Both the position numbers and the translations under genes were made by a program. The notes under the pieces were generated by a model. That model searched no databases and was not told the origin of the DNA. It saw nothing but the letters and a program-made list of their open reading frames with translations. A DNA stretch of 64,000 bases from Betaproteobacteria bacterium HGW-Betaproteobacteria-12. GTDB taxonomy: Bacteria > Pseudomonadota > Gammaproteobacteria > Burkholderiales > Rhodocyclaceae. Shown here piece after piece: positions 12,638 through 63,772 of this stretch; positions within the stretch are counted from its first letter, which is position 1; each line of letters starts with the position of its first letter. The DNA is taken from contig PHCU01000001.1 in assembly GCA_002842345.1 (NCBI GenBank), forward strand, positions 20,906 to 84,905, read 5' to 3'.

Positions 12638-12674
12638 CGAATTGTTAATTGCAACCGCTGCAACGATAATTAAC

Positions 12675-12696
12675 AAACCGACCGTTCCGTCTGTTT
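12675..12696. promoter_or_regulatory. CymR-type operator upstream of maoC unit
   Basis: The arms AAACCGAC and GTCTGTTT are separated by 6 bp. The published cumate operator has arms AAACAGAC and GTCTGTTT with the same 6-bp spacing, so 15 of 16 arm bases agree. It lies 95 bp before the MaoC start and about 40 bp beyond the motif A copy. Confidence 0.65.
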
Positions 12697-12756
12697 CTGA
12701 TAGTAAACACTCGGCTCGCGCCCTGTCAATCGTGCTGCGGATTTTTCCTTGCCAGC

Positions 12757-39762: not shown

Positions 39763-41046
39763 ATGAGTGATCTCAAAATCCCCACAGAGCTGGTTGCCCC
39801 CATCTTCAATCCTGCCAGCTACGCCGATCGCCAGCGGATGGAGAAAATGCTCGCCAACCTGCGCCACAACTACCCCCTGTCGCAGGCGGAAGTCCCCGGC
39901 TACGACCCGCACTGGATCGTCACCAAGTACAAGGATGTCCGCGAAATCACCCGCCAGGACAACATCTTCCACAGCGGCGATCGCTCCAAGACGCCGGCCT
40001 CCCTGATCGCCGAGCAGATGATGCGCGACTACAGCGGCGGCAAACCCCACATCTTCCGCACCCTGGTGCACATGGACCCGCCGGACCATACGGCGCACCG
40101 CGACCTGGTCAAGGATGCCTTCATGCCGCAGAACATCGCGGCACTCGAGACCTCGATCCGCGAGATGGCCCGCCGCTATGTCGACCAGATGGCCGGCATG
40201 GACTCCACCTGCGATTTCGCCGGCGACATCGCCATGAACTACCCCCTGGAAGTGGTATGCACGCTGATTGGCCTACCCAAGGAAGACCACGCGATCATGC
40301 TGCGCCTGACCCAGTGGTTCCTCAGCTACGCCGACCCCGATCTGTGCCGCCCCGGCTCGGTGCTGAGCGACCCCGAGGAACAGATCAAGACCTGGCAGAT
40401 CGTCTATGACGAGTTCAAGAGCTACTACAGCTCGGTGATCAAGGATCGCCAGGCCTGTCCGCGCCACGACCTGGCCAGCACCATCTCCAACGGCAAGGTC
40501 AACGGCTGCCCGATGGACGAACGCTCGATGATTTCCTATTTCGTCATCGCCTCCACCGCCGGTCACGACACGACTGCCGCCACCATCGCCAACTCGATGT
40601 GGACGCTGGCCACCAAGCCCGAACTGCTGGCCCGCCTCAAGGCCGAACCGGCGCTGATTCCCAATTTCGTCGAGGAAGCCATCCGGTGGACGACGCCGGC
40701 CATGTGCTTCATCCGCTCCGCCGCCGAGGATTACGAGTTGTCCGGCCGTCAGATCAAGAAGGGTGACCTGCTCTACATCTCCTATCTCTCGGCCAACCGT
40801 GATGAGGAAATGTTCGAGGACCCCTATGAGTTCCGGCTCGACCGCACGCCGAACCGCCACATCGGCTTCGGCTATGGCGCTCATATCTGTGTCGGCCAGC
40901 ATCTTGCCCGCCTCGAAATGCGCCTGCTCTGGGAGGAACTGATCCCCCGCCTCGAATCGGTCGAGATGGCCGGTGAAGGCAAATGGCAAGAGTCCGAGTT
41001 CGTCTGCGGGCCGAAGTACGTGCCCATCCGCTTCAAGATGAAGTGA
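39763..41046 (+). CDS. Cytochrome P450, CYP108 (P450terp)-like
   Basis: A soluble 427-aa bacterial P450. The oxygen-binding helix is TAGHDTTAATIANSMW, the ExxR motif is EEAIRW, and the heme loop FGYGAHICVGQHLARLEM contains the thiolate Cys. The N-terminal region (YDPHWIVTKYKDVREI) and C-terminus (ANRDEEMF, PNRHIGFGYGAH, GPKYVPIRF) resemble P450terp as I remember it more than the CYP153 alkane hydroxylases. P450terp hydroxylates the ring methyl of alpha-terpineol. It is followed by its electron-transfer proteins. A p-menthane or related hydrocarbon is a likely substrate, by analogy. Confidence 0.93.
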   Translation: MSDLKIPTELVAPIFNPASYADRQRMEKMLANLRHNYPLSQAEVPGYDPHWIVTKYKDVREITRQDNIFHSGDRSKTPASLIAEQMMRDYSGGKPHIFRTLVHMDPPDHTAHRDLVKDAFMPQNIAALETSIREMARRYVDQMAGMDSTCDFAGDIAMNYPLEVVCTLIGLPKEDHAIMLRLTQWFLSYADPDLCRPGSVLSDPEEQIKTWQIVYDEFKSYYSSVIKDRQACPRHDLASTISNGKVNGCPMDERSMISYFVIASTAGHDTTAATIANSMWTLATKPELLARLKAEPALIPNFVEEAIRWTTPAMCFIRSAAEDYELSGRQIKKGDLLYISYLSANRDEEMFEDPYEFRLDRTPNRHIGFGYGAHICVGQHLARLEMRLLWEELIPRLESVEMAGEGKWQESEFVCGPKYVPIRFKMK

Positions 41047-41059
41047 AGAGGAAATTCAT

Positions 41060-41239
41060 ATGAGCACAACCCCCTACCGCAAGTGGCAATGCCTGGCCTG
41101 TGGCGACATCTACGACGAGGCCCTGGGCAGTCCGCCGGACGGCATCCCGGCCGGCACCCGCTTCGAGGCGTTGCCGGATGACTGGCTGTGTCCCAACTGC
41201 GGCGCCCTGAAGGCCTCCTTCGTACCGATGGATGACTGA
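41060..41239 (+). CDS. Rubredoxin (59 aa), not in ORF track
   Basis: A 59-codon gene starts 13 bp after the P450 stop with a GAGGAAA ribosome site. The peptide has both iron knuckles, CLACGDIYDEALGSP and DDWLCPNCGALKASF (C-x2-CG and CP-x-CG), and the usual PPDGIPAGTRFEALPDDW segment, so it is a one-iron rubredoxin. It would carry single electrons. Finding it between a P450 and its ferredoxin/reductase is unusual, because P450s normally use 2Fe-2S partners. It could feed a second oxygenase or serve as an alternative donor. Confidence 0.93.
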   Translation: MSTTPYRKWQCLACGDIYDEALGSPPDGIPAGTRFEALPDDWLCPNCGALKASFVPMDD

Positions 41240-41324
41240 CCGCCAGGCGACGACGGCACGAGCGACAGCCTTTTCGCCAGCCCGCACCGTCATCGCCAAT
41301 CTACCCCCCGGAGAACAACACCCC

Positions 41325-42554
41325 ATGAATCAACAGAACCGCGAACACGTGGTCGTCATCGGCGCCGGTCACGGCGGCGGCCTGACCGTCGCCTTCCTGC
41401 GCCAATACGGCTTTGCCGGCGACATCACCCTGATCGGCGATGAAACCGTCCTGCCCTACCAGCGACCGCCGCTATCGAAGGCCTGGCTGAAGGGCGAGGT
41501 CACTCAGGAAAGCCTGGCCCTGCGCCCCCCTGCCTTCTACCTTGAACAGAATATTGACCTGCATCTCGGCGTCCGCGCCGAACGCATCGATGTCGATGCC
41601 GGTCACGTCGTCCTCGCCAGCGGTCAGGAAATTCCCTACGACCATCTGGTCCTGGCCACCGGTGCGCACGCCCGCACCCTGCCCATCCCTGGCGTGCACT
41701 TCACCAACGTGATGACGCTGCGTACCCTGGTCGATGCAGAACACATCCGTGGCGCCCTCGGACCGAGCAAGAAACTGGTCATCATCGGCGGCGGCTACGT
41801 CGGCCTCGAATGCGCCGCCACGGCACGCGCCCTGGGCGCCGAAGTCACCGTGCTCGAACGCGCACCGCGACTGCTCGAACGCGTCGCCAGCGCCCCGGTT
41901 TCCGCCTTTCTGCAGCGCTTTCACGAAAGCCAGGGCGTTGCCTTCCGGCTCAACGCCGGCATCGAGGCCATTCTCGGCAACACCCACGCCGAGTCGGTGC
42001 TGCTCAACGATGGCACCGAGTTGTCATGCGATGCGGTACTGGTCGGCGTCGGCGCCATGCCGACCGCCTCGATGGCCCAGGCGATCGGCCTGCGCTGCGA
42101 CGACGGCATTCTGGTCGATGCCGATTGCCGCAGCTCCGATCCGCACATCTTCGCCATCGGCGACGTCGCCAAGCGGCCTCATCCGCTGTACGACCGCGTG
42201 CTGCGCCTGGAAAGCGTGCCGAGTTGCATGGAACAGGCCAAGCGGGTGGCCGCTTGCATTACCGGGCGCGAACCGGCGGCGGCCGAAGTGCCGTGGTTCT
42301 GGTCGGACCAGTACGATCTCAAGCTGCAGATCGCCGGACTACCCTTCGCGGTCGACGAAACCGTCGTGCGCGGCAACCCGGATGAAGCCAAGTTCGCCGT
42401 TTTCCACCTAAGCGCCGGCAGGGTCGTCACCGTCGAGGCGATCAACGCCCCGCCCGAGTTCTTTGCCGGCAAAAAGCTGATCGCCTCCGGAAAGCCGGTC
42501 CCGCGCGAAAAGCTCGCCGATACGGCCATTCCCCTCAACGAGCTGGCGGCATAG
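41325..42554 (+). CDS. FAD-dependent ferredoxin/rubredoxin reductase
   Basis: A protein of about 409 aa of the putidaredoxin/terpredoxin reductase class. It has an N-terminal FAD dinucleotide fold (HVVVIGAGHGGGLTVAFLRQYG), VLPYQRPPLSKAWLKG, a second nucleotide fold for NADH (KLVIIGGGYVGLECAATARALGAEVTVLE), HIFAIGDVAKRPHP and a C-terminal reductase domain. It passes electrons from NADH to the 2Fe-2S ferredoxin, and perhaps to the rubredoxin. The true start is MNQQNREHVV at 41325, with a GGAG site; the track ORF extends upstream into the rubredoxin gene. Confidence 0.93.
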   Translation: MNQQNREHVVVIGAGHGGGLTVAFLRQYGFAGDITLIGDETVLPYQRPPLSKAWLKGEVTQESLALRPPAFYLEQNIDLHLGVRAERIDVDAGHVVLASGQEIPYDHLVLATGAHARTLPIPGVHFTNVMTLRTLVDAEHIRGALGPSKKLVIIGGGYVGLECAATARALGAEVTVLERAPRLLERVASAPVSAFLQRFHESQGVAFRLNAGIEAILGNTHAESVLLNDGTELSCDAVLVGVGAMPTASMAQAIGLRCDDGILVDADCRSSDPHIFAIGDVAKRPHPLYDRVLRLESVPSCMEQAKRVAACITGREPAAAEVPWFWSDQYDLKLQIAGLPFAVDETVVRGNPDEAKFAVFHLSAGRVVTVEAINAPPEFFAGKKLIASGKPVPREKLADTAIPLNELAA

Positions 42555-42582
42555 GCCAGCCATTCACCCCACCGAGGCTCTC

Positions 42583-42903
42583 ATGATCAAGATCACCTTC
42601 ATCGAACATGGCGGCACGCCCCACACCATCGACATTCCGGAAGGGATGTCGCTGATGCAGGCGGCGGTCAATCACAACATTCCGGGCATCGATGCCGACT
42701 GCGGCGGCTCCATGACCTGCGGCACCTGCCGCGTCTGCATTCCGCCCGACGCCCAGGGAATAGCCGGGGAACAGTCCTCACTGGAACAGCAGATGCTGGA
42801 ATTTTCCGGGCTGGGCGGGGGTGGCATCCGGTTGAGCTGCCAACTCATTGCCAAAGCGGAATTCAACGGTCTGCAACTGCAAATTCCGGAAGCGCAGCTT
42901 TAA
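42583..42903 (+). CDS. 2Fe-2S ferredoxin, adrenodoxin/terpredoxin type
   Basis: A 106-aa ferredoxin with the cluster motif DADCGGSMTCGTCRVC (C-x5-C-x2-C) and a fourth Cys in RLSCQL, the pattern of putidaredoxin, terpredoxin and adrenodoxin. It is the last gene of the P450-rubredoxin-reductase-ferredoxin unit, 28 bp after the reductase, and is the natural direct donor to the P450. Confidence 0.94.
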   Translation: MIKITFIEHGGTPHTIDIPEGMSLMQAAVNHNIPGIDADCGGSMTCGTCRVCIPPDAQGIAGEQSSLEQQMLEFSGLGGGGIRLSCQLIAKAEFNGLQLQIPEAQL

Positions 42904-51565: not shown

Positions 51566-52600
51566 TCAAGGAGTACGCAAGCCACGCTCCCTGGCCATGG
51601 TGATGGCGGTATCTTCGATCATGTCTTCCTGCCCGCCGACCATGCCGCGCCGGCCCAGCTCGACCAGGATGTCGCGCGCCGGCACGCCGTACTTGACGGA
51701 AGCGCGCTTGGCGAACAGCAGGAAGGAGCCATAGACGCCGGCGTAGCCCAGGGTCAGCGCGTCGCGGTCGATGCGGATCGGGAAGTCCATGATCGGCACC
51801 ACCAGGTCTTCGGCGACGTCGGTGATCTTCGCCACATCCACCCCGGTCTCGATGCCCATCAGGCTGCACACGGCGATCAGCACTTCCATCGGCGTATTCC
51901 CCGCCCCGGCACCCAGCCCGGCGGCCGCGGCGTCGATGCGGGTGGCGCCGACTTCGATGGCGGCGATGGAGTTGGCGACGCCCATGGCCAGGTTGTGGTG
52001 GCCGTGGAAGCCGAGTTCGGTTTCCGGCTTCAGCGCCGCGCGCACCGCACCGAGGCGTTCCTTGACGCCGTCCGGCAGCAGATGGCCGGCCGAGTCGGTG
52101 ATGTAGATGCAGTTGGCGCCGTAGCTTTCCATCAGCTTGGCCTGCTTGACCAGGCCTTCCGGGCTGTTCATGTGGCTCATCATCAGGAAGCCGACGGTGT
52201 CCATGTCCAGCTTGCGGGCCATGGTGATGTGCTGTTCGGAGACATCAGCCTCGGTGCAGTGGGTGGCGACGCGGATAGTGTTGACGCCCAACTCGCGGGC
52301 CATCTTCAGGTGATCGACGGTGCCGATGCCGGGCAGCAGCAGGGCCGAGACCTTGGCCTGCTGCATCTTCGGGATCACGGCGCCCAGATATTCCTCGTCG
52401 GTATAGGCCGGGAAGCCGTAATTGACCGAGGAGCCGCCCAGGCCATCGCCGTGGGTGACTTCGATCAGCGGCACGCCGGCCGCATCGAGGCCGGTGGCGA
52501 TGCTGACCATCTGCTCGAGAGTCATCAGGTGACGCTTGGGATGCATGCCATCGCGCAGGGTCATGTCGTGGACGGTAATTTTCTTGCCTTTGACGGTCAT
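51566..52600 (-). CDS. dmpG: 4-hydroxy-2-oxovalerate aldolase
   Basis: A protein of about 344 aa of the DmpG/BphI/MhpE (HMGL-like) family. It opens [26 protein letters not shown] (catalytic Arg and Asp in TLRDGMH) and has [39 protein letters not shown], with the metal-binding His pair. It splits 4-hydroxy-2-oxovalerate to pyruvate and acetaldehyde with Mn2+, and channels acetaldehyde into the dehydrogenase encoded just upstream. The start is MTVKGKK at 52600. It is the third gene of the minus-strand hydratase-dehydrogenase-aldolase unit (CmtG step). Confidence 0.97.
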
Positions 52601-52616
52601 CTTGGTTTCTCCGTTT

Positions 52617-53564
52617 TCAGTGAGCGCCGCAGCCGGCCAGATTGGGGATACCGCTACTCGCCTTCGGTTCAAGGACCAGACGGCCGGCGAGGATCTCTTC
52701 GGCAAACATCTCGGCAGTACGCGCGCCGGCGGCAGTCATGATGTCGAGGTTGCCGGCATAGGTCGGCAGGAAGTCGCCGAGACCCTGCACTTCGAGGTAG
52801 ACCGAGACGCGGTTGCCGTCGAACACCGGGCCGTTGACCAGGCGGTAGCCGGGCACGTATTTCTGGACTTCGGCGATCATGCTCAGGATCGAGTCGGTGA
52901 TCCGCGCCTGGTCCGGCGTCGTTTCGGTCAGGCAGTGCACGGTGTCGCGCATGATCAGCGGCGGTTCGGCCGGGTTGATGATGATGATCGCCTTGCCCTG
53001 CTCGGCGCCGCCGACCTGCTCGATGGCGCTCGCCGTGGTGCGGGTGAATTCGTCGATGTTCTTGCGCGTGCCGGGGCCGGCGCTCTTCGAGCTGATGGTG
53101 GCGACGATCTCGCCGTACCTGACCTTCTGCACGCGGGAGATGGCGGCGACCATGGGGATGGTGGCCTGCCCGCCGCAGGTCACCATGTTGACGTTCATGG
53201 CCTTGCGCCCGACCAGTTCCCGGAGGTTGACCGGTGGCACGCAGAAGGGGCCGATGGCGGCCGGCGTCAGGTCAATCATCAGCACGCCCAGGGCGTTGAG
53301 CTTGCGGCTGTTCTCGGCATGGACGTAGGCAGAGGTGGCGTCGAAGGCGATCTGCACGCCATCGGCGAGGACGTGCGGCAGCAGGCCGTCGACGCCGTCT
53401 GACGCGACCTTGAGACCGAGCTCGGCGGCGCGCTTCAGGCCCTCCGATTCGGGGTCGATGCCGATCATCCAGACCGGGTCGAGGACGGGGCTGCGCTTGA
53501 GTTTGTAGAGCAGGTCGGTGCCGATGTTGCCGGGACCGATCAGCGCGCATTTGATTTTTTTCAT
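52617..53564 (-). CDS. Acetaldehyde dehydrogenase (acylating)
   Basis: A 315-aa enzyme of the DmpF/BphJ/MhpF family. It starts [23 protein letters not shown] (NAD-binding loop) and has the catalytic Cys in [19 protein letters not shown], plus the conserved [18 protein letters not shown]. It converts acetaldehyde, CoA and NAD+ to acetyl-CoA, and pairs physically with the aldolase encoded 16 bp downstream. It lies 30 bp after the hydratase gene. It corresponds to the last step (CmtH) of the p-cumate-type pathway. Confidence 0.97.
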
Positions 53565-53594
53565 CTCATTCTCCGTAGGGATGGGGAAGCAGGC

Positions 53595-54407
53595 TCAGGC
53601 GAACAGGGCGCTGACCGTGCCCAGGCCGTCGATGCGGACATCGAAGCGGGCCGCTTCGCTGACCGCGACCATCGGCCCGAGGGCGCCGGTCAGGACGATG
53701 TCGCCGGCCTGCAGCGGGCGGCCGCAGCGGACCATGACGTCGGCCAGCCAGATCGCGGCGTTCAAGGGGCTGCCCAGGCAGGCCCGGCCGTTGCCGAGTG
53801 AAACGACCTCGTCACCGCGGCGCATTTCCATGGCGCAGGCGGTGAGATCGACATCGCCCAAGCGTACCGGCCGGCCGCCAAGGACGAACAGGCCGCTGGA
53901 GGCGTTGTCCGCCACCGTATCGACGAATTTGATGTTCCAGTTGGCGATGCGGCTGTCGACGATCTCGATGGCCGGCAGCGCATATTCCGTGGCACCGATA
54001 ATGTCGGCGTAGGTATGGCGTTCATGGGTCAGGTCGCGGCCGAGGACCAGCGCCACCTCGGCTTCGACCTTGGGCTGGATCAGCCGGCTGAGCGCCACCG
54101 GTTCGCCGTCGCCGACCGCCATGTCGGCGAACAGCATGCCGAAGTCGGGCTGATCGACGCCGAGTTGCGCCTGCACAGCCAGCGAGGTCAGGCCGATCTT
54201 GCGGCCGACCAGGCGGCGACCTTCGGCCAGCCAGGCCAGAGTATTGAGTTCCTGGACGGCATAGACAGCCTCGGCCGAGGTCGCCGCCAGGCGGTCGCGC
54301 AGCGGGGCGATTGGCTGCCGGCCGGCGTGGGCCGCCTTGAGCAGGGCAGCAGCGGATTCGGCGCTGAGCACCGCGTTTTGCTCCCCGGTGTTAACTGGAG
54401 TGGTCAT
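53595..54407 (-). CDS. 2-hydroxypenta-2,4-dienoate hydratase (2-keto-4-pentenoate hydratase)
   Basis: A protein of about 270 aa of the MhpD/DmpE/BphH family, with [46 protein letters not shown] (metal-binding Glu residues) and [13 protein letters not shown]. It adds water to 2-hydroxypenta-2,4-dienoate to give 4-hydroxy-2-oxovalerate for the aldolase downstream. The start is [11 protein letters not shown] at 54407, with an AGGAAAC site; the track ORF extends 55 codons upstream. It is the first gene of the minus-strand unit, with a CymR-type site 94 bp upstream (CmtF step). Confidence 0.95.
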
Positions 54408-54500
54408 AGTGTTTCCTTTCTTGGACGCAGCCGCCGTGACGTGGCATGAAGAGAGCGAGGACCGCTCGCCAGCCGTTGTGCAAACTCGAATAAAGTCTAG

Positions 54501-54522
54501 ATACAAACCGGCCGGTCTGTCC
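54501..54522. promoter_or_regulatory. CymR-type operator, hydratase side
   Basis: The arms ATACAAAC and GTCTGTCC, with a 6-bp spacer, agree with the cumate operator arms at 12 of 16 positions, with correct spacing. It includes the palindrome ACCGGCCGGT. It lies 94 bp upstream of the hydratase start. It is weaker than the other two sites. Confidence 0.45.
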
Positions 54523-54761
54523 ACAATTTTCAATATTCGCTGTTTCGAGCCAGCTGCATGGCCCCGGAACAATGATCGGACAGCCCCTCTTTATCCGCCG
54601 CCTCGAATGCAATGCCAGCACCAACAAAAGAAATTATTAGATAGTTAATTCAATTAATTAAGCAACGAAACCATCCGCCCAAATGGTCTCGAACCAGCGA
54701 GCCGCAAAAAAATCTCCTCAGCCCCGTTGACCTCGCTCCGCTTTGCCATTAAATTTCACAC

Positions 54762-54783
54762 CAACAGACCGTACTGTCTGTTT
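54762..54783. promoter_or_regulatory. CymR-type operator, Rieske side
   Basis: The arms CAACAGAC and GTCTGTTT with spacer CGTACT match the cumate operator (AAACAGAC, 6 bp, GTCTGTTT) at 15 of 16 arm positions. The inner GTAC makes the whole element almost a perfect palindrome. It is 157 bp before the dioxygenase start. Confidence 0.75.
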
Positions 54784-54939
54784 GTTTATACGAACAGCGA
54801 CAAGACTGAGCATCCGCAGAAAGCGACGACACGACGCAATCGGTGGGTATTGCATGACGCACGCGACAGAGAACACCTCCCGAACAACCGTCCCAACGGA
54901 CCAGGGAGAACTTTTTGGGCAAAACCAAAGGAGGACTAG

Positions 54940-56214
54940 ATGGGTGCATCAAATAACGACGTACTCGTGAGCAATGATGAGAAGCAAGGGCTTTTCAGGG
55001 TTGCTCGCAAGGCCTTTACCGATTCGGAGATCATCAAGGCCGAATACGAAGAGGTGTTCAACAAGTGCTGGCTGTATGTCGGCCATGAATCGGAAGTCGC
55101 CAAGAAAGGCGATTTCGTGCGGCGCATCGTCGCCAAGCGCAATCTCATTTTCAATCGCGACTCGACCGGCAAGGTCAATGCGTTCTTCAACACCTGCCCC
55201 CACCGCGGCGCCGAAGTCTGTCGCGAAGCCAAGGGCAACTCCAAGCACTTCACCTGCATGTACCACGGCTGGATTTTCAGCGCCGATGGCGAGCTGAAGA
55301 ACCTGCCGGGCAGCGAGCGCTACAGCGCCGATTTCAAGGAGCAGAAACGCGGCAATCTGGTGCCGGTGCCCCGCTTCGAAAACTACCGCGGCGTGTGCTT
55401 CGTCAATTTCGACCCGAATGCCTGCTCGCTGATCGACTACCTCGGCAACGCCAGGGAATATCTCGATCTGGTTCTCGACCAATCCTCCGACGGCATGACC
55501 ATCGTCAGCGGCCAACAGGATTACGCCATCCGGGCCAACTGGAAGCTGCTGGTTGAAAACAGCAACGACGGTTATCACGCGGCGATGACCCACGCCACCT
55601 ACCTCGACTACCTGGCCAACACGCACGCCAAGGGCAACGAGGTGGCGCTGAAGGGCGTCGGTCGCGAACTCGGCGGCGGTCATGCCGTCGTCGAATACAC
55701 CGCACCGTGGGGGCGCCCGATCGCCAACTGGATTCCGGTCTGGGGCGAGGAAGGCAAGGTGGAAATGGATCGCATCCATGCCCGCCTGGAGCAGGAGCAC
55801 GGCAAGGCCAAGGCCGATCGCATCTGCTTCAAGAACCGCAACCTGCTGATTTTCCCGAATCTGGTCATCAACGACATCATGGCCGTGACCTTCCGCACCT
55901 TCTACCCGCTGGCGCCGAACTACATGAACGTCAGCGGTTGGGCGCTGGCGCCGACCAACGAAACCGAGTGGGCACGCAAGTACCGCCTCAACAACTTCCT
56001 GGAATTCCTCGGCCCGGGCGGCTTTGCCACTCCCGACGACGTCGAGGCCCTCGAATCCTGCCAGGCGGGCTATGCCAACTCCCTGGAAAGCGGAGCCGAG
56101 TGGAACGACATCTCGAAGGGGATGGGGATGGATGCCATGTACGACGATGAAATCCAGATGCGTTCGTTCTGGAAAGAGTGGAATCGTCGCGTTCAAGACG
56201 TTGTTGCCAAATAA
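54940..56214 (+). CDS. Rieske ring-hydroxylating dioxygenase, alpha subunit (CmtAb-like)
   Basis: A 424-aa oxygenase subunit. The Rieske centre is [11 protein letters not shown]...FTCMYHGW (C-x-H...C-x2-H, about residues 85-110). The mononuclear iron site is in [16 protein letters not shown] (bridging Asp and two His, about residue 207). It adds O2 across the ring of an aromatic acid to make a cis-dihydrodiol, using electrons from the reductase and Rieske ferredoxin encoded downstream. The length and surrounding genes point to p-cumate 2,3-dioxygenase (CmtAb) or a close relative. It is the first gene of the nine-gene plus-strand unit. Substrate not proven. Confidence 0.95.
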
Positions 56215-56225
56215 GGAGAGCCGAC

Positions 56226-56711
56226 ATGAGTTTGCCGACTCGTAGTGAAGTTGAGGATTTTCTGTTTTTCGAGGCCGACCTGCTCGACAACTGGCAACTG
56301 AAGGACTGGTTGAAGTTGTACACCCAGGACTGCGAATACCAGGTTCCGTCCACCGACCTGCCCAAGGGCGCCGATCCGGAGCACAACCTGTTCTATATCG
56401 CCGACGATTTCACGCGCCTGGAACAGCGCGTGATCCGCCTGGGCAAGAAGACGATGTGGTCCGAGTATCCGCGCTCCAAGCTCCGTCACCTGGTCAGCAA
56501 TGTCCGCGTGCTGGGCATGGAAGGAGATGACATCACGGTCAAGGCCAACTTCGCGGTTTATCGCACCAAGTGGGAAAACACCGACCTCTACGTGGGTAGC
56601 TACGACTACATCCTGCGCCGGGAGGCCGATGGCCTGAAGATCCGCAAGAAGCGTTGCACGCTCGATCTCGACGGCCTGCGTCCGCAAGGCCGCGTCAGCA
56701 TCCTGCTGTAA
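56226..56711 (+). CDS. Rieske ring-hydroxylating dioxygenase, beta subunit (CmtAc-like)
   Basis: A protein of about 161 aa of the SnoaL/NTF2-like ring-hydroxylating beta family. It begins SEVEDFLFFEADLLDNWQLKDWLKLYTQDCEYQVPSTD, and the middle RHLVSNVRVLG and C-terminal IRKKRCTLDLDGL are typical. It supports the alpha subunit in an alpha3beta3 oxygenase and has no redox centre. The start ATG 56226 lies behind an AAGGAGAG site, 11 bp after the alpha stop. It pairs with the alpha subunit as CmtAc does with CmtAb. Confidence 0.94.
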   Translation: MSLPTRSEVEDFLFFEADLLDNWQLKDWLKLYTQDCEYQVPSTDLPKGADPEHNLFYIADDFTRLEQRVIRLGKKTMWSEYPRSKLRHLVSNVRVLGMEGDDITVKANFAVYRTKWENTDLYVGSYDYILRREADGLKIRKKRCTLDLDGLRPQGRVSILL

Positions 56712-56726
56712 GTCCTGGTGCCATGA

Positions 56727-56750
56727 GGGGCTGGCGGCATCGCCAGTCCC
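56727..56750. terminator. Intra-operon hairpin after beta subunit gene
   Basis: A 10-bp stem (GGGGCTGGCG with CGCCAGTCCC, one G-T pair) around a 4-base GCAT loop starts 15 bp after the beta-subunit stop. No T-run follows. It is probably an mRNA-stability or attenuation element, lowering downstream expression or protecting the alpha-beta message. Confidence 0.5.
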
Positions 56751-56788
56751 TCGTTCGCCGAAACCTGATCTCGCTGGGAAACTTGCCC

Positions 56789-57691
56789 GTGAAACTTCCA
56801 TTCCGCTACGAAAAACTCGGCTATGCCGCGCTCAATGTCACGAATCTCGATCGCTCGGTCGCCTTCTATCGGGATCTGTTAGGCCTGGACCTGGTCGAGC
56901 AAACCGACACCGTCGCCTATCTCCGTTGCTCGTCGGACCATCACAACCTGATGCTCTACAAGGCCGAAACCGCCGGCCTGAAACGCGTGGCCAACAAGCT
57001 GGCATCGCCGGAGGACCTGACCAGGGCCTACGAACACTATCTCGCCGAAGGCCTCCACCCGGCCTGGATCAGCATGGAGGAATGCCATGCCCTGAAGCAG
57101 GGCCCGACCTTCCGCGTCCGCGAGCCGCAATCCGGCGTCCTCTTCGAGTGTTACGAGCAGATGACCCACATGGCACTGCCCTTCAAGGCGGCGCTGACCA
57201 AGATTGCCCGCATCGGGCACGTCGTCGTCGGCTCGGCGCATTACGAGCGGGCCGTTCATAACCTGAACACCATATTCAACTTCGCCATATCCGACTACGT
57301 CGAAGGCAAGTTCTCGTGGATGCGCTGCTTCCCGAACCCGCTGCACCACACCTTCGCGATCGGCAACAGCGACCGCAACCACCTGCACCATGTCAACTTC
57401 ATGGTCACCGACATCGACGACATCGGCAAGGCGCTGAATCGCATGCAGAAGGCCGGCATCGAGGTCGTCTTCGGGCCAGGCCGCCACCTGCCCTCGACCT
57501 CGATCTTCCTGTATTTCCTCGACCCGGACGGCCTGACCATCGAATTCAGCTTCGGCATGGAAGAACTGCCGGAAGCCACCGCCCGCCAGCCGCGCATGCT
57601 CGAGATGCATCCCAACACGATGGACATCTGGGGCAGCTCGCCGAAGGAACGCTTCGGCAAGGGCGGGGAAATCGAGGCAGACCATGGCTGA
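56789..57691 (+). CDS. Extradiol ring-cleavage dioxygenase (CmtC-like, VOC fold)
   Basis: A type I extradiol dioxygenase of about 300 aa. The N-terminal module starts YEKLGYAALNVTNLDRSVAFYRDLLGLDLVE. The catalytic module carries the three iron ligands: His in ARIGHVVVGS, His in NRNHLHHVNFMVTDIDDI and Glu in DGLTIEFSFGMEEL. It opens a catechol-type ring next to one hydroxyl. The likely start is GTG 56789, giving the usual length; the track ORF begins 45 codons earlier inside the beta-subunit gene. By position it is 2,3-dihydroxy-p-cumate 3,4-dioxygenase or similar. Its end overlaps the SDR start by 8 bp. Confidence 0.92.
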   Translation: MKLPFRYEKLGYAALNVTNLDRSVAFYRDLLGLDLVEQTDTVAYLRCSSDHHNLMLYKAETAGLKRVANKLASPEDLTRAYEHYLAEGLHPAWISMEECHALKQGPTFRVREPQSGVLFECYEQMTHMALPFKAALTKIARIGHVVVGSAHYERAVHNLNTIFNFAISDYVEGKFSWMRCFPNPLHHTFAIGNSDRNHLHHVNFMVTDIDDIGKALNRMQKAGIEVVFGPGRHLPSTSIFLYFLDPDGLTIEFSFGMEELPEATARQPRMLEMHPNTMDIWGSSPKERFGKGGEIEADHG

Positions 57692-58454
57692 GGCAAAAAA
57701 ACGCCTGAACGGCCAGGTGGCTGTCGTCACCGGTGCCGCCCACGGCATCGGCCTGGCCATCTCCCATCAACTGGCAGCCGAGGGCGCCCGGGTGGTAATG
57801 GCCGATGTTCTCGACGAGGCGATCAACGCCTCGGCCGCCGCAGTCAAGGCAGCGAGCGGCATGGATACGCTCGCCTGGGTCGGCGATCTGTCGCAGGAAG
57901 AAACCGTGGCCGAACTGCTCGCGGCGACGCGCCGCACCTTCGGCCCGGCCGCCATCCTGATCAACAACGCCGGCGGCGGCGTCATCCGTCCCTTCCTCGA
58001 GCACACCCCGGAAACGCTGCGCGCCACCATTGACCGTAACCTGTGGACCGCGCTTTGGTGCTGCCGGATGTTCATCCCCGGCATGCTCGACATGGCCTAT
58101 GGCCGTATCGTCAATATCGGTGCCGATTCGGTGCGCAACGGCCTGTGGCAACACGCTGCCTACAACGCCGCCAAGGGCGGGGTGCACGGACTGACCAGCG
58201 GCCTGGCCCGGGAATTTGCCGGCAACGGGATCACCGTCAACACCGTCGCGCCCTGTGCCGTACGTACTGCCGCCCTCGATCATGTCGAGAAGGTCAATCC
58301 GGCATTCGCCAGCCAGGTACTGGGTGTCATCCCGCTGGGGCGCGCCGGCGAAGTCGACGAGATCGCCAGCATGACGGTGTACCTGGCCGGGCCGGAGGCT
58401 TCCTTCGTCACCGGCCAGGTGATCAGCGTCAACGGCGGCAGCACGATGCTCTAG
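57684..58454 (+). CDS. cis-dihydrodiol dehydrogenase, SDR family (CmtB-like)
   Basis: A 256-aa SDR with VVTGAAHGIGLAISHQLAAEGARVV, the NNAGGG motif, catalytic Ser in NIGADSVRNG, Tyr and Lys in AAYNAAKGGVHGL, and a C-terminal PEASFVTGQVISVNGG. It would oxidise the cis-dihydrodiol made by the Rieske oxygenase back to a catechol with NAD+. It overlaps the extradiol gene by 8 bp, a sign of coupling. It corresponds to 2,3-dihydroxy-2,3-dihydro-p-cumate dehydrogenase in the cmt series. Confidence 0.92.
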   Translation: MAEAKKRLNGQVAVVTGAAHGIGLAISHQLAAEGARVVMADVLDEAINASAAAVKAASGMDTLAWVGDLSQEETVAELLAATRRTFGPAAILINNAGGGVIRPFLEHTPETLRATIDRNLWTALWCCRMFIPGMLDMAYGRIVNIGADSVRNGLWQHAAYNAAKGGVHGLTSGLAREFAGNGITVNTVAPCAVRTAALDHVEKVNPAFASQVLGVIPLGRAGEVDEIASMTVYLAGPEASFVTGQVISVNGGSTML

Positions 58455-58537
58455 ACACGATGACAACGCGAACTCCCCAGCCCACCCCCAGCCCCGCGGC
58501 AAGCGTGGCGCCCCCCTCCCCCGGGCGAGATGAGCGG

Positions 58538-59206
58538 ATGACCGGCAACACGCACAAGAAAACCCAGCTGGAACGCAGCCAGGAGACCCGCGAACGGATC
58601 ACGGCCGCCGCCATCACGGTACTGCGCCGCAAGGGCTTCGCCGGCTTCCGGGTGGCCGACGTGGCGACCGAAGCCGGGGTTTCGCGGGGGGCGCAGACGC
58701 ACCATTTCCCGTCGAAGCGCGAACTGGTGCTGGCCGTTTTCGCCACCGTCTTCAACCAGGCGAGCGAAGCCAGCCGGGCACGGATTGCCGGCATCCAGCC
58801 GAGCGACGACGTGATCGACGCCATTCTGGTCGACGCCGCCGAGTTCTTTCTGAGCCCGGATTTCCCGATGGGTCTGGACATGCTGGGTGCCGCAGAACGC
58901 GACCCAGAGCTGCGCGACGCCGTCAGCGAGTCGGCGCGCGCGACGCGTTCGCTGGTCGAACAGATGTGGGTCAATCTGCTGGTCGCCCGCGGTTTGCCGC
59001 GACCCGATGCAGAAGACCTGCTATGGCTGATTTTCAGCGCCATTCGCGGATTGTCGGTGCGCATGCTCTGGCAGTTCGACAACGATCGCTTCGAACGCCT
59101 GAAGCGCATCACTTACCGTGCCGCCTGCGATCTCTACGAAAAGAAGCAGTCCGGCATCCACCTGAAGATTGCTGAACAAGCACCCAAGCGAGGAATACTG
59201 CAATGA
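58538..59206 (+). CDS. TetR-family regulator, CymR-like (inside operon)
   Basis: A regulator of about 222 aa with the HTH ITAAAITVLRRKGFAGFRVADVATEAGVSRGAQTHHFPSKRELVLAVF. The C-terminal domain (EFFLSPDFPMGLDMLGAAERDPELRDAV, then LLWLIFSAIRGLSVRMLWQFDNDRFERLKRITY) closely parallels the TetR at 63110 and CymR as I remember it. The start is taken at 58538 (MTGNTHKK); ATG 58460 would add a Pro/Ala/Ser-rich stretch. Its stop overlaps the hydrolase start (ATGA). It likely binds the AAACAGAC-type operators and responds to a pathway acid. Confidence 0.9.
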   Translation: MTGNTHKKTQLERSQETRERITAAAITVLRRKGFAGFRVADVATEAGVSRGAQTHHFPSKRELVLAVFATVFNQASEASRARIAGIQPSDDVIDAILVDAAEFFLSPDFPMGLDMLGAAERDPELRDAVSESARATRSLVEQMWVNLLVARGLPRPDAEDLLWLIFSAIRGLSVRMLWQFDNDRFERLKRITYRAACDLYEKKQSGIHLKIAEQAPKRGILQ

Positions 59207-60084
59207 GTCTGTGGCTCGATATGCTCGGTACGGAGATCCGCTTCGTCCAAACCCGGAATTTCGGACGCATCCGGATCGCCGAAGCCGGTGACCGCAAGGC
59301 CGAAACCATCCTCTTCCAGCATGGCATCAACGGCCACCTCGAGGCCTACGCCAAGAACCTGATCGCGCTCTCCCGCGAATTCCATGTGGTCGCCTTCGAC
59401 TACGTCGGCCACGGGCTCTCCGACAAGCCGCCGCTCGAGTACACCCCGCCGCTGCTCGCCGAGCAACTCGGCGAACTGATGGATGCGCTCGATCTCGAAG
59501 CGGCCCATCTCTCCGGCGAATCGCTAGGCGGCTGGGTTTCCGCGCTGTTCGCCATCAAGTATCCACACCGGGTCAAGCGCCTGATGCTCAACACCGCCGG
59601 CGGGCTGCCGGTGGTTTCGGCCAAGGGCAAAGCGGATCTGCAGAACCTGATCAGCCTCAACGAGCGCAACGTCAACAACGTACCGACCGAGCAGAGCGTG
59701 AAGGCCCGGCTGGAGTGGCTGATGCACGAGAACAACCGACATCTGGTCAACGAGGAACTGATCGCCCTGCGCTTGGGCATCTACCTGCGTCCGGAAACAC
59801 GCGCCGTGGCACCGACGATCAACCGCATCATCAACCGCCACGACGAGTTCCTGATTCCGGTCGAGCAGCTGAGCTGCCCTACCCTCTTCCTGTGGACCGT
59901 GGACAACCCGATTCATGACCTGGAGACAGCCCGCGCCGCGGCGGCTCGCGTTCCCGGCAGCCAGCTCTACATCATGAAGGGTGACGCGGCCCACTGGCCG
60001 CAGTATGAAGTCCCGGAAGAATTCGACGCCGTGACCTGCGAATTCTTCCACACCGGCAAGGTCAACGGCGCCGAAAGCGCCTGA
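59203..60084 (+). CDS. meta-cleavage product C-C hydrolase, alpha/beta fold (CmtE-like)
   Basis: A 293-aa hydrolase with the nucleophile elbow SGESLGGWVSALFA (Ser, about residue 107), the acid residue in LFLWTVDNPIHDLETA, and the His in GDAAHWPQYEVPEEF. DYVGHGLSDKP marks the family near the N-terminus. It belongs to the BphD/MhpC/CmtE group, which cleaves the ring-fission product into 2-hydroxypenta-2,4-dienoate and a carboxylic acid (isobutyrate in the p-cumate pathway). It overlaps the TetR stop by 4 bp. Its first product feeds the divergent hydratase-dehydrogenase-aldolase unit. Confidence 0.93.
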   Translation: MSLWLDMLGTEIRFVQTRNFGRIRIAEAGDRKAETILFQHGINGHLEAYAKNLIALSREFHVVAFDYVGHGLSDKPPLEYTPPLLAEQLGELMDALDLEAAHLSGESLGGWVSALFAIKYPHRVKRLMLNTAGGLPVVSAKGKADLQNLISLNERNVNNVPTEQSVKARLEWLMHENNRHLVNEELIALRLGIYLRPETRAVAPTINRIINRHDEFLIPVEQLSCPTLFLWTVDNPIHDLETARAAAARVPGSQLYIMKGDAAHWPQYEVPEEFDAVTCEFFHTGKVNGAESA

Positions 60085-60094
60085 CGGAGCGGCA

Positions 60095-61135
60095 ATGATG
60101 AGCGGAGCCTGCTGCCCTGGCGTGGATATCCACACCCACGTCGTTCCGGAAAACTTCCCGGTCTTCGCGGGCAACGGCAGCACCGTGGCCTGGCCGAGCA
60201 TGGCAGCAGCCCAAGCCTGTCACCGCCACGTGATGATTTCGGGCAAGGTCTTTCGCACCGTCCCGGACAAGAGCTGGGATAGCGGCAAACGCATTGTCGA
60301 CATGGACCTCCTGGGCATCGAACGCCAGGTTCTGTCGCCAATGCCGGAATTGCTCTCCTACTGGCTGGATGCCGGTGATGCGGCGCTCCTGACGCGCCAT
60401 CTCAACGAGACCATCGCCGGCATGGTGCACGCTCATCCCGGGCGCTTTTCCGGCCTCGGTGCCGTACCACTGCAGGATGTCGGGCTGGCGATCGGCGAAC
60501 TGGAGCATGCAGTTGGCCGACTCGGGCTGGCCGGCATCGAGATCGGCACCAACGTCAACGGTGCTCCAATCGGTGCGCCGGAATTCGAACCCTTTTTCGC
60601 CGCTGCCGCCAGCCTGGGGGCGGCGATTTTCATCCATCCGCTGCGTCCCTGCGGCATGGAGCGACTGCTCGGCCCCACCCTGCTCGAACAGGTTCTCGCC
60701 TTCCCATGCGAAACCGGCCTGGCCGCTGCCTCGCTGCTGACCGGCGGCACGCTGGCGCGGCATCCGTCGCTGCGCATCGCGCTCAGCCATGGCGGCGGCT
60801 CCTTCCCGGCGCTGGCGGCACGGCTGAACCACGCCTGGAACATTTTCCCGGCCTTGCAAGAAGTGATGCGTGAGGCGCCGCTGGAACTGGCCAGGCGCTT
60901 CTACTTCGACAGCCTGGTTTACCACCCGGAACTGCTGCGTCAGCAGATCGCGCTGTTCGGCAAAAGCCAAACCATGATCGGCAGCGATTACCCGTTCGTA
61001 ATCGAAGAAAAAGCCCCCCGGCAACGCATTCTCGAACTGGGTTTCGATGCCGAAACACAGGATTTGCTGTGCCGTGGCAATGCCCTGCGCTGGCTTGGCC
61101 AGCCAACGGCAAACAACGACTGGAGCAAGAAATGA
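60095..61135 (+). CDS. Amidohydrolase-2 decarboxylase (ACMSD-like)
   Basis: A 346-aa metal-dependent decarboxylase of the ACMSD group. The metal residues are HTH in GVDIHTHVVPENFP, His in AIFIHPLRP, His in ALSHGGGSFP and Asp in MIGSDYPF. ACMSD decarboxylates 2-amino-3-carboxymuconate semialdehyde, which differs from the p-cumate ring-fission product mainly in having amino instead of hydroxy. This protein is therefore a good candidate for the 3-carboxyl decarboxylation (CmtD step), and no other decarboxylase is seen in the cluster. It lies between the hydrolase (10 bp) and reductase (4-bp overlap). Confidence 0.88.
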   Translation: MMSGACCPGVDIHTHVVPENFPVFAGNGSTVAWPSMAAAQACHRHVMISGKVFRTVPDKSWDSGKRIVDMDLLGIERQVLSPMPELLSYWLDAGDAALLTRHLNETIAGMVHAHPGRFSGLGAVPLQDVGLAIGELEHAVGRLGLAGIEIGTNVNGAPIGAPEFEPFFAAAASLGAAIFIHPLRPCGMERLLGPTLLEQVLAFPCETGLAAASLLTGGTLARHPSLRIALSHGGGSFPALAARLNHAWNIFPALQEVMREAPLELARRFYFDSLVYHPELLRQQIALFGKSQTMIGSDYPFVIEEKAPRQRILELGFDAETQDLLCRGNALRWLGQPTANNDWSKK

Positions 61136-62151
61136 CTGAAAGTTTTCGGATCAGCCTGAGCGGCAGCGAGACTACTTACACCGGCAACACGGGCGATACG
61201 CTGTTGCGTGCCGGACTGCGCCAGGGTCTGGGGTTGGCTTACGAATGCAATGTCGGCGCCTGCGGCTCCTGCAAGTTCGACCTGATCGCCGGCGAGGTCG
61301 ACGACCTGTTCCCGGAAGCCAGCGGCTTGCGCCCCAAGGAGCGCGAGAAAGGCAAGCGCCTGGCCTGCCAGTGCGTACCGCGCAGCGATTGCACGATCAA
61401 GATACGCAGCGGCGACGAATACCTCAGCGCCATTCCCCCGGCCCGCTTCAAAGCCCGCTTCATCGACAGGAAAGCACTGACCCCCGACATTTCGCTCTTC
61501 ACCTTCGCCAGCGACGGGCCGGCCGAATTCCTCGCCGGCCAGTACGCCATGATCGGTATTCCCGCGCTCAGCCAGGCCCGTGCCTACTCGATGTCGAACA
61601 TCGCCAACGAAGAAGGGATCTGGCAATTCATCATTCGCCGCGTTCCCGAGGGCAAGGTCACGGCTTATCTGTTCGACCGCCTGCGGCTTGGCGATCAACT
61701 CGATCTCGACGGCCCTTACGGCATCGCCTATCTGCGTACCGACGTCACCCGACCGATTGTCGGCATTGCCGGCGGCTCCGGCCTGGCGCCGGTCCTCTCG
61801 GTGCTGCAGGGTGCCGCGCGCAGTCGATGTGCCAACGGCGCCCGGCCGGCCATGCTCTATGGGGGGAGAACCCCGACTGACATTCCCGATGTTCGGCAAA
61901 TGGCCACCGAGGCCGGCATTGAAGTCGACTTCCATCCGGTTATTTCGGCGCCGGTCAACGGCGTGAGCGTGGAATGGCGTGGCGACATCGGCTTCGTCCA
62001 CGAATTCATCGCGAAGAAGCTGGCTGCGCCGCTACCCGGTTACGAATATTACCTGGCCGGCCCGCCACCGATGATCGAAGCGGCCGTGCGCCTGCTGGTC
62101 GCCGAGCACAAGGTGCCGACGACGCAGATTCACTTCGATCGATTCTTTTAA
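61132..62151 (+). CDS. Rieske dioxygenase reductase (2Fe-2S/FAD/NAD)
   Basis: A reductase of about 339 aa. The N-terminal plant-type ferredoxin domain has ECNVGACGSCKFDL (C-x4-C-x2-C) and a fourth Cys in LACQC. The flavin domain has RAYSMSN, and the pyridine-nucleotide domain has VGIAGGSGLAPVLSVL and a C-terminal LAGPPPMIEAA. It takes electrons from NAD(P)H to the Rieske ferredoxin encoded next. The start is MTESFRIS at 61132, overlapping the decarboxylase stop (ATGA); the track ORF begins 21 codons earlier. It fits the CmtAa role. Confidence 0.93.
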   Translation: MTESFRISLSGSETTYTGNTGDTLLRAGLRQGLGLAYECNVGACGSCKFDLIAGEVDDLFPEASGLRPKEREKGKRLACQCVPRSDCTIKIRSGDEYLSAIPPARFKARFIDRKALTPDISLFTFASDGPAEFLAGQYAMIGIPALSQARAYSMSNIANEEGIWQFIIRRVPEGKVTAYLFDRLRLGDQLDLDGPYGIAYLRTDVTRPIVGIAGGSGLAPVLSVLQGAARSRCANGARPAMLYGGRTPTDIPDVRQMATEAGIEVDFHPVISAPVNGVSVEWRGDIGFVHEFIAKKLAAPLPGYEYYLAGPPPMIEAAVRLLVAEHKVPTTQIHFDRFF

Positions 62152-62176
62152 GACTGACCCCGAGGAGGAAAATCAA

Positions 62177-62485
62177 TTGGCAATTCTGAATCTGTGCAAG
62201 GCCGAGGACGTTGCTCCCGGCGAATCGCTGCTCGTCGAACTGGACGACTGCCCGCCCCTCGCCGTCTTCAACGTCGCCGGCGAATTCTTCGTCATCAACG
62301 ACACCTGCAGCCACGGCGATGCGTCGCTCTGTGATGGCGAAATCGAGGATGGCGAAGTCGAGTGCCCTTGGCATAACGCCAAGTTCTGTATCAAGACCGG
62401 CAAGGCACTGACCTTTCCGGCCGTTGAGCCCCAGAAGACCTACAAGACCCGTGTCGAAGACGGCACCGTAAGTATCGATGTTTAA
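62177..62485 (+). CDS. Rieske-type ferredoxin of dioxygenase system
   Basis: A 102-aa ferredoxin with a full Rieske binding pattern, CSHGDASLCDGEIEDGEVECPWHNAKF (C-x-H...C-x2-H), followed by KTGKALTFPAVEP. It carries electrons from the reductase to the oxygenase alpha subunit (CmtAd role). It starts at a TTG, supported by GAGGAGG 8 bp upstream and by the standard N-terminus. It ends the plus-strand unit. Confidence 0.95.
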   Translation: MAILNLCKAEDVAPGESLLVELDDCPPLAVFNVAGEFFVINDTCSHGDASLCDGEIEDGEVECPWHNAKFCIKTGKALTFPAVEPQKTYKTRVEDGTVSIDV

Positions 62486-63109: not shown

Positions 63110-63745
63110 TCAGCGCTTGGGCAGAACTTTCTTTTTGCGGTCGAACAACTCGAACGCGGCCTGATAGGTAATCAGCTTGACCCGCTCGAAGCGCTCCTTG
63201 TCAAACTGCCACAGCAGGCGCACGGAAAGGCCGCGAATCGAACTGAAGACCAGCCACAGCACATCTTCTGCATCCTCTCTGGACAAACCACGAGTCAGCA
63301 GCAAGCCAATCCACATGTCTTCGACGAGATGACGATTCGAGCGGGCGACTTTCTGCACCGCATCACGCAATTCCGGATCACGTCCGGCCGCACCCAGAAT
63401 GTCCAGACCGATGGAAAAGTTCTGCCCGAGAAAGAAGTCCGAGGCATCGGCGATCATTTCGGCAATCACATCGTCTTCCGGCTTGACTGCCGCAATCCGC
63501 AAACGGCTGGCTTCGGTCGCCTGATCAAAAACACGGGCGACAGCACACAAGACCAGATCGACCTTGGTGGGGAAGTGGTGAGTCTGGGCCCCACGCGACA
63601 CGCCGGCCTCTTCCGTAACGTCCGCTACGCGAAAACCCGCGTACCCCTTGCTCCGGAGTATCTCAACAGCGGCGCTGATGACGCGCTCCTGAGTTTCGGA
63701 ACTCCTCTCGGCTTGAGTTCTGCGCTTGGGCTTAGCTGACAGCAT
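63110..63745 (-). CDS. cymR: TetR-family regulator, CymR homologue
   Basis: A protein of about 211 aa starting MLSAKPKRRTQAERSSETQERVISAAVEILRSKGYAGFRVADVTEEAGVSRGAQTHHFPTK. Its C-terminal part has FFLGQNFSIGLDILGAAGRDPELRDAV and LLTRGLSREDAEDVLWLVFSSIRGLSVRLLWQFDKERFERV. From memory this is very close along its length to Pseudomonas putida CymR, the p-cumate-responsive repressor. With the CymR-type operators at 12675, 54501 and 54762 it should repress the pathway until the aromatic acid binds. The start at 63745 matches CymR length; the track ORF is 9 codons longer. Confidence 0.92.
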   Translation of the reverse strand: MLSAKPKRRTQAERSSETQERVISAAVEILRSKGYAGFRVADVTEEAGVSRGAQTHHFPTKVDLVLCAVARVFDQATEASRLRIAAVKPEDDVIAEMIADASDFFLGQNFSIGLDILGAAGRDPELRDAVQKVARSNRHLVEDMWIGLLLTRGLSREDAEDVLWLVFSSIRGLSVRLLWQFDKERFERVKLITYQAAFELFDRKKKVLPKR

Positions 63746-63772
63746 TTGTCGGACCTGCATCAATGTGGGCAA

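Follow-up and report, generated by a model that had tools for sequence, protein, structure and literature searches.

Which enzyme removes the ring carboxyl group in an aromatic-acid pathway that resembles p-cumate degradation when CmtD, the decarboxylase of that pathway, is not found? We have explored this question in a 64,000-nucleotide stretch of a betaproteobacterial contig (PHCU01000001.1; hereafter the window), where the preliminary description had proposed that an ACMSD-type amidohydrolase takes the place of CmtD. Using comparisons of sequence, predicted fold, gene order and gene content, we consider it very probable that this amidohydrolase would act as the decarboxylase of the ring-fission product in CmtD's place.

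The gene set and the search for CmtD

The locus at 51566-62485 encodes a complete route from 2,3-dioxygenation of a benzoate-type acid through meta-cleavage to the lower pathway (Table 1): dioxygenase, diol dehydrogenase, extradiol enzyme, decarboxylase, C-C hydrolase and the hydratase, aldolase and acetaldehyde dehydrogenase, with the decarboxylation step falling to the amidohydrolase. The genes from dioxygenase to ferredoxin (54940-62485) are co-directional on the plus strand and the hydratase, acetaldehyde dehydrogenase and aldolase unit (54407-51566) is divergent. The amidohydrolase reading frame is complete, from ATG to TGA (346 amino acids), and it lies close between its neighbours in the operon, as only 10 bp separate it from the alpha/beta hydrolase gene and its stop codon overlaps the ATG of the ferredoxin reductase at 61132. 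This is no chance reading frame, since orthologues with 66-70% identity are found within the corresponding operon of three further records, namely Thauera linaloolentis, Massilia sp. 9I and a MAG contig.

Table 1. Features of the locus and the evidence for each.
Feature	Coordinates	Strand	Evidence
4-hydroxy-2-oxovalerate aldolase (CmtG role)	51566..52600	-	51-58% identity to genes annotated dmpG in plasmid records
Acetaldehyde dehydrogenase, acylating (CmtH role)	52617..53564	-	TIGR03215, 468 bits, above cut-off
2-oxopent-4-enoate hydratase (CmtF role)	53595..54407	-	NCBIfam 2-keto-4-pentenoate hydratase, above cut-off
Predicted CymR-type operator ACCAACAGAC-CGTACT-GTCTGTTTGT	54760..54785	+	154 bp before dioxygenase ATG; 1 mismatch in 20
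Rieske ring-hydroxylating dioxygenase alpha subunit (RHD-alpha), benzoate-dioxygenase-like	54940..56214	+	PF00355 and PF00848; best NCBIfam benA, 275 bits, below cut-off
Ring-hydroxylating dioxygenase beta subunit	56226..56711	+	PF00866
Type I (VOC) extradiol dioxygenase, HpaD-like, probable GTG start	56789..57691	+	PF00903, two domains; HpaD 142 bits, below cut-off
Short-chain dehydrogenase, presumed cis-dihydrodiol dehydrogenase (CmtB role)	57684..58454	+	PF13561
TetR-family regulator inside operon (CymR-like position)	58538..59206	+	PF00440; 62% identity to TetR at 63110-63772
Alpha/beta hydrolase, presumed C-C hydrolase (CmtE role)	59203..60084	+	PF00561; best PDB match HsaD/BphD; nucleophile motif GESLG
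ACMSD-type amidohydrolase, proposed ring-fission-product decarboxylase	60095..61135	+	PF04909; ACMSD best PDB match; active-site residues; AlphaFold model and Foldseek; synteny; exchange with CmtD
Ferredoxin reductase component (CmtAa role)	61132..62151	+	PF00111, PF00970 and PF00175
Rieske ferredoxin component (CmtAd role)	62177..62485	+	PF00355
Second TetR regulator, operon flank	63110..63772	-	62% identity to operon-internal TetR; 58-65% to TetR genes of sister operons

With the cmt operon of the p-cumate pathway (P. putida F1, B. xenovorans LB400) the locus shares the dioxygenase components, diol dehydrogenase, extradiol enzyme, hydrolase, hydratase, aldolase, acetaldehyde dehydrogenase and an embedded TetR regulator. 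The HCOMODA decarboxylase CmtD holds the same pathway position there as the amidohydrolase in the window, but CmtD is a class II aldolase of about 243 amino acids and the two families are unrelated. In these and the following comparisons, homologues identified by context stood in for authentic CmtD, CmtC, DhbA and OpaD. CmtD-type proteins fall in PF00596 (Aldolase_II), to which the amidohydrolase, a PF04909 protein, does not belong, and the CmtD-family enzyme DhbB is likewise called a class II aldolase (PMC6362003); the earlier statement that CmtD belongs to another protein family was thus correct. The extradiol dioxygenase has about 25% identity to the DhbA/OpaC-like type (the DhbA-like proteins being identified by context), and therefore the pathway is cmt-like in its logic, and probably in its regulation, rather than a plain copy of cmt.

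A CmtD homologue elsewhere in the genome would, according to the preliminary description, have refuted the proposal. None was found by family and protein searches of this genome, a draft that is 95% complete with 6.9% contamination, in which a CmtD gene could have been missed. The single PF00596 class II aldolase of the genome, at C122, was considered as a candidate CmtD and rejected: it has 27% identity (18.8 bits) to the CmtD-type query, and directly before it an MtnA-like gene ends. As this preceding stretch appears to carry the C-terminal motif of MtnA, we assign the aldolase to methylthioadenosine (methionine) salvage.

Sequence, fold and active site of the amidohydrolase

Against Pfam, the protein matches PF04909 (Amidohydro_2) alone, with 133.5 bits (cut-off 26.4), and no model in the NCBIfam scan names it. 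Its best relative in the PDB by sequence is human ACMSD (207 bits, E 4e-60); the score against the bacterial enzyme of P. fluorescens (PfACMSD) is lower, at about 152 bits. Other decarboxylases of the PDB follow at 82-87 bits (5-carboxyvanillate), 70 bits (gamma-resorcylate) and 53 bits (2,3-dihydroxybenzoate), and LigY, with 23 bits, is among the most distant matches. The AlphaFold model, built with ten orthologues as input (pTM 0.84), has ACMSD as its best Foldseek match (TM 0.86-0.89), compared with TM 0.68-0.80 for the gamma-resorcylate, 5-carboxyvanillate and isoorotate decarboxylases. Closest match and predicted fold together place the protein in the ACMSD-type branch of the Amidohydro_2 decarboxylases, in agreement with its first assignment as an ACMSD-type amidohydrolase.

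These comparisons bear on two other functions that the superfamily could provide. One would be decarboxylation of the aromatic acid before ring cleavage, converting a 2,3-dihydroxybenzoate-type compound to catechol, so that the extradiol enzyme would cleave plain catechol. The 2,3-dihydroxybenzoate and gamma-resorcylate decarboxylases do belong to the same superfamily, and the extradiol enzyme of the operon resembles catechol 2,3-dioxygenases (TIGR03211, 109 bits, below cut-off); against this, both the sequence and the fold of the amidohydrolase are much closer to ACMSD. Furthermore, its metal motif is H-x-H and it has an arginine at position 51 (PfACMSD numbering), where threonine and an E-x-H motif are found in an annotated gamma-resorcylate decarboxylase (L079). 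The second would be C-C hydrolysis of the ring-fission product, in the manner of the meta-cleavage product hydrolase LigY, also a member of the superfamily. The distance of LigY among the PDB matches and the alpha/beta hydrolase that the operon already encodes, nearest HsaD/BphD and with its nucleophile motif, make us regard this function as very improbable.

The active site also agrees with a decarboxylase of the ACMSD branch. In the alignment with PfACMSD, the zinc ligands H13, H15, H181 and D298 correspond to H9, H11, H177 and D294, the catalytic H232 to H228, and the carboxylate-binding R54 and R243 to R51 and R239, the roles of these residues in ACMSD being known (PMC11650718). The H-x-H motif, third histidine, aspartate, His228, Arg51 and Arg239 of the branch are therefore all in place, and the statement that the metal residues are complete holds, with the catalytic histidine in addition. 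Two other positions differ: Trp194 of PfACMSD is replaced by glutamine (Q199) and Arg247 by phenylalanine (F251). Both residues are kept in human ACMSD, in PfACMSD and in three plasmid ACMSDs with a nearby 3-hydroxyanthranilate dioxygenase gene, and the W194A mutation lowers the kcat of PfACMSD 26-fold (PMC11650718). The pocket of the amidohydrolase thus differs from that of ACMSD, and the protein lacks the residue pair of ACMSD in the strict sense. In the tree, it falls in a cluster of 22 ring-cleavage-linked amidohydrolases (support 94/95), separate from the ACMSD clade (97/92).

These differences argue against a genuine ACMSD of a 3-hydroxyanthranilate or 2-nitrobenzoate route, a role that could have been expected from the closest family with solved structures and from the match at every zinc and carboxylate residue. 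The human enzyme and NbaD of P. fluorescens share with the amidohydrolase the fold, the zinc ligands, the catalytic histidine and both carboxylate-binding arginines; unlike it, they act on a 2-amino substrate and keep W194 and R247, and the plasmid ACMSDs examined adjoin 3-hydroxyanthranilate dioxygenases, a gene that the operon does not have. A search of the window's genome for that dioxygenase (PF06052) gave no match, and neither did the control genomes. With the two lost residues and the separate clades, we regard a genuine ACMSD as hardly credible. The Trp194/Arg247 difference offers a simple hypothesis for the choice between hydroxy and amino substrates.

The decarboxylase that we propose would work as follows. 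The extradiol dioxygenase would cleave a 2,3-dihydroxybenzoate-type catechol, at a predicted position (the enzyme not being of the DhbA/OpaC-like type), to a 2-hydroxy-3-carboxy-6-oxo-dienoate. The amidohydrolase, a presumed mononuclear zinc enzyme of the ACMSD fold, would then take off the 3-carboxyl group. By analogy with ACMSD, R54 and, contributed by the partner subunit, R243 would bind the two substrate carboxylates, H232 would activate the water bound to the zinc (ligands H13, H15, H181 and D298), and the 3-carboxylate would leave as CO2. Finally, the alpha/beta hydrolase would split the side-chain acid from the decarboxylated product. The amidohydrolase would in this way fill the step carried out elsewhere by CmtD and DhbB, of the class II aldolase family.

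Exchange with CmtD-type aldolases

A further argument for a replacement comes from sister operons. The orthologous operon is present with a CmtD-type class II aldolase on plasmids of Sphingopyxis macrogoltabida and Novosphingobium resinovorum, with identities to the window of 57% and 55%, respectively, for RHD-alpha and 51% and 47% for the extradiol enzyme, and no amidohydrolase lies within the 25 kb read in either case. The Sphingopyxis aldolase is 51-58% identical to the aldolases of dhb-like clusters in Caballeronia, Cupriavidus and Tistrella. Since the step is occupied in these operons by the family of DhbB, which acts after ring cleavage, they also argue against decarboxylation before cleavage, which we judge to be improbable. 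The same exchange recurs with other ring-cleavage enzymes: next to DhbA-like VOC enzymes, the amidohydrolase is found in Pseudosulfitobacter (L018), L058 and G542 and the aldolase in Tistrella, Cupriavidus and Caballeronia, and next to LigB-type dioxygenases, the amidohydrolase is found in Mycobacterium paragordonae (L078) and the aldolase in Streptomyces (L073). A further genome (G213) also has the operon of the window with its amidohydrolase, in divergent orientation. The claim of a non-orthologous replacement of CmtD is supported by these operons, in which a CmtD-type aldolase stands where the window has the amidohydrolase, although the principle itself has a precedent.

This precedent is OpaD of Pseudomonas PTH10, an ACMSD-like enzyme shown by assay and deletion to decarboxylate 3-carboxy-2-hydroxymuconate semialdehyde (CHMS), with 30% identity to NbaD and 28% to PraH; its authors set it against DhbB, a class II aldolase (PMC6362003). 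OpaD therefore already established that an ACMSD-type enzyme can take the place of a class II aldolase at a CHMS-type step, and it acts where the window enzyme is proposed to act, after extradiol cleavage and ahead of the lower meta pathway. The OpaD system, compared here by its description, differs in serving an o-phthalate/2,3-dihydroxybenzoate pathway with an HMS dehydrogenase, a 4-oxalocrotonate branch, TRAP-type transport and an aldehyde substrate, while the window combines an HsaD/BphD-like hydrolase with a CymR-type operator and another type of extradiol enzyme. PraH, with which OpaD was compared (PMC6362003), also decarboxylates a 2-hydroxy ring-fission product; from its description, it differs from the window enzyme in the place of the carboxyl group and in belonging to the protocatechuate 2,3-cleavage pathway. 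Literature searches of titles and abstracts returned nothing relevant on amidohydrolase decarboxylases in cumate pathways, and a search for ACMSD with meta-cleavage found none. What is new in the present case would be the resemblance of the setting to cmt, with a CymR-type operator, an HsaD/BphD-like hydrolase and a substrate that is probably a ketone, and the breadth of the clade of such enzymes.

The distribution across genomes follows the same direction. In a sample of 369 class-level genomes, with RHD-alpha counted at about 50% identity or more, the amidohydrolase was present in all six genomes with RHD-alpha and in 7 of the other 363 (Fisher p 1.5e-6 with the query genome dropped and genera collapsed, a partial correction for shared ancestry), and a CmtD-type protein was present in 1/369. 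Besides the window's genome, 11 of 12 RHD-alpha genomes have the amidohydrolase at 40% identity or more; one of them (G908) has a CmtD-type aldolase as well, two (G150 and G262) have the amidohydrolase outside about 10 kb of the dioxygenase, and the twelfth genome (G1066) is without a close homologue.

Based on these data, we put forward, at roughly even odds, a broader proposal: the ACMSD-fold clade marked by the loss of Trp194 and Arg247 would be distinct and widespread, would supply the decarboxylase most often used in cmt-like benzoate 2,3-dioxygenase pathways and would have been exchanged with CmtD several times independently, and its branch in the window would turn over ketones formed by ring fission of p-alkylbenzoates, with control of the CymR type. 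Two unrelated families can serve one and the same obligatory step of the aromatic-acid pathway in operons that are orthologous in their other genes, and annotation by CmtD alone would miss many such pathways, leaving the gene as 'amidohydrolase'.

Three further observations concern these loci. The MAG contig with the operon (L001, JALHFX010000098.1) is labelled Propionibacterium; in the tree, its amidohydrolase joins the Thauera protein with support 100/100, and the contig is probably a mis-binned betaproteobacterial contig. In nine records (L004-L009, L014-L016), amidohydrolases with 50-57% identity adjoin a VOC dioxygenase, and in most cases a fumarylacetoacetate hydrolase-family protein and an MhpA-like FAD monooxygenase are encoded as well; this may be a different route of carboxylated-catechol cleavage. 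Paired VOC genes also recur next to the amidohydrolase or the CmtD-type aldolase (L018 22406-24147, L058 13195-14928, L075 8195-9924).

Predicted CymR-type sites and the possible substrate

The predicted operator before the dioxygenase gene is, by sequence match, of the cmt type: it follows the published CymR operator, ACAAACAGAC-N6-GTCTGTTTGT (PMC5224996), and 0 such sites are expected by chance. Related sites precede the operon in Thauera, L001 and L048, and a weaker one in L003. A scan of 1.28 Mb of fetched sequence, allowing up to four mismatches, placed every site at a member locus of this operon family, apart from one elsewhere in the window. The putative operator is a new link of the operon to the p-cumate regulon. 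For the substrate, the HsaD/BphD-like hydrolase suggests a ketone ring-fission product, and we give p-cumate or another p-alkylbenzoate an even chance of being the natural substrate.

A second CymR-type site of the window (12673-12698, 2 mismatches) precedes a minus-strand row of MaoC, HpcH/HpaI lyase, acyl-CoA dehydrogenase, DUF1302, DUF1329 and RND-type transporter genes. In Thauera, a two-mismatch site (12491) likewise stands before DUF1302/DUF1329-like genes, right after the operon, and the recurrence of such predicted sites in both suggests a shared regulon. Finally, the window encodes, at 39763-42903, a cytochrome P450 whose closest match is P450terp (386 bits), together with a ferredoxin reductase and a 2Fe-2S ferredoxin of its own. 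Acyl-CoA dehydrogenase and thiolase genes abound in this region, which is probably a terpenoid degradation island. Together, the CymR-type sites linked to DUF1302/DUF1329 genes and the P450terp-like cytochrome would point to a terpenoid or alkylbenzoate substrate.
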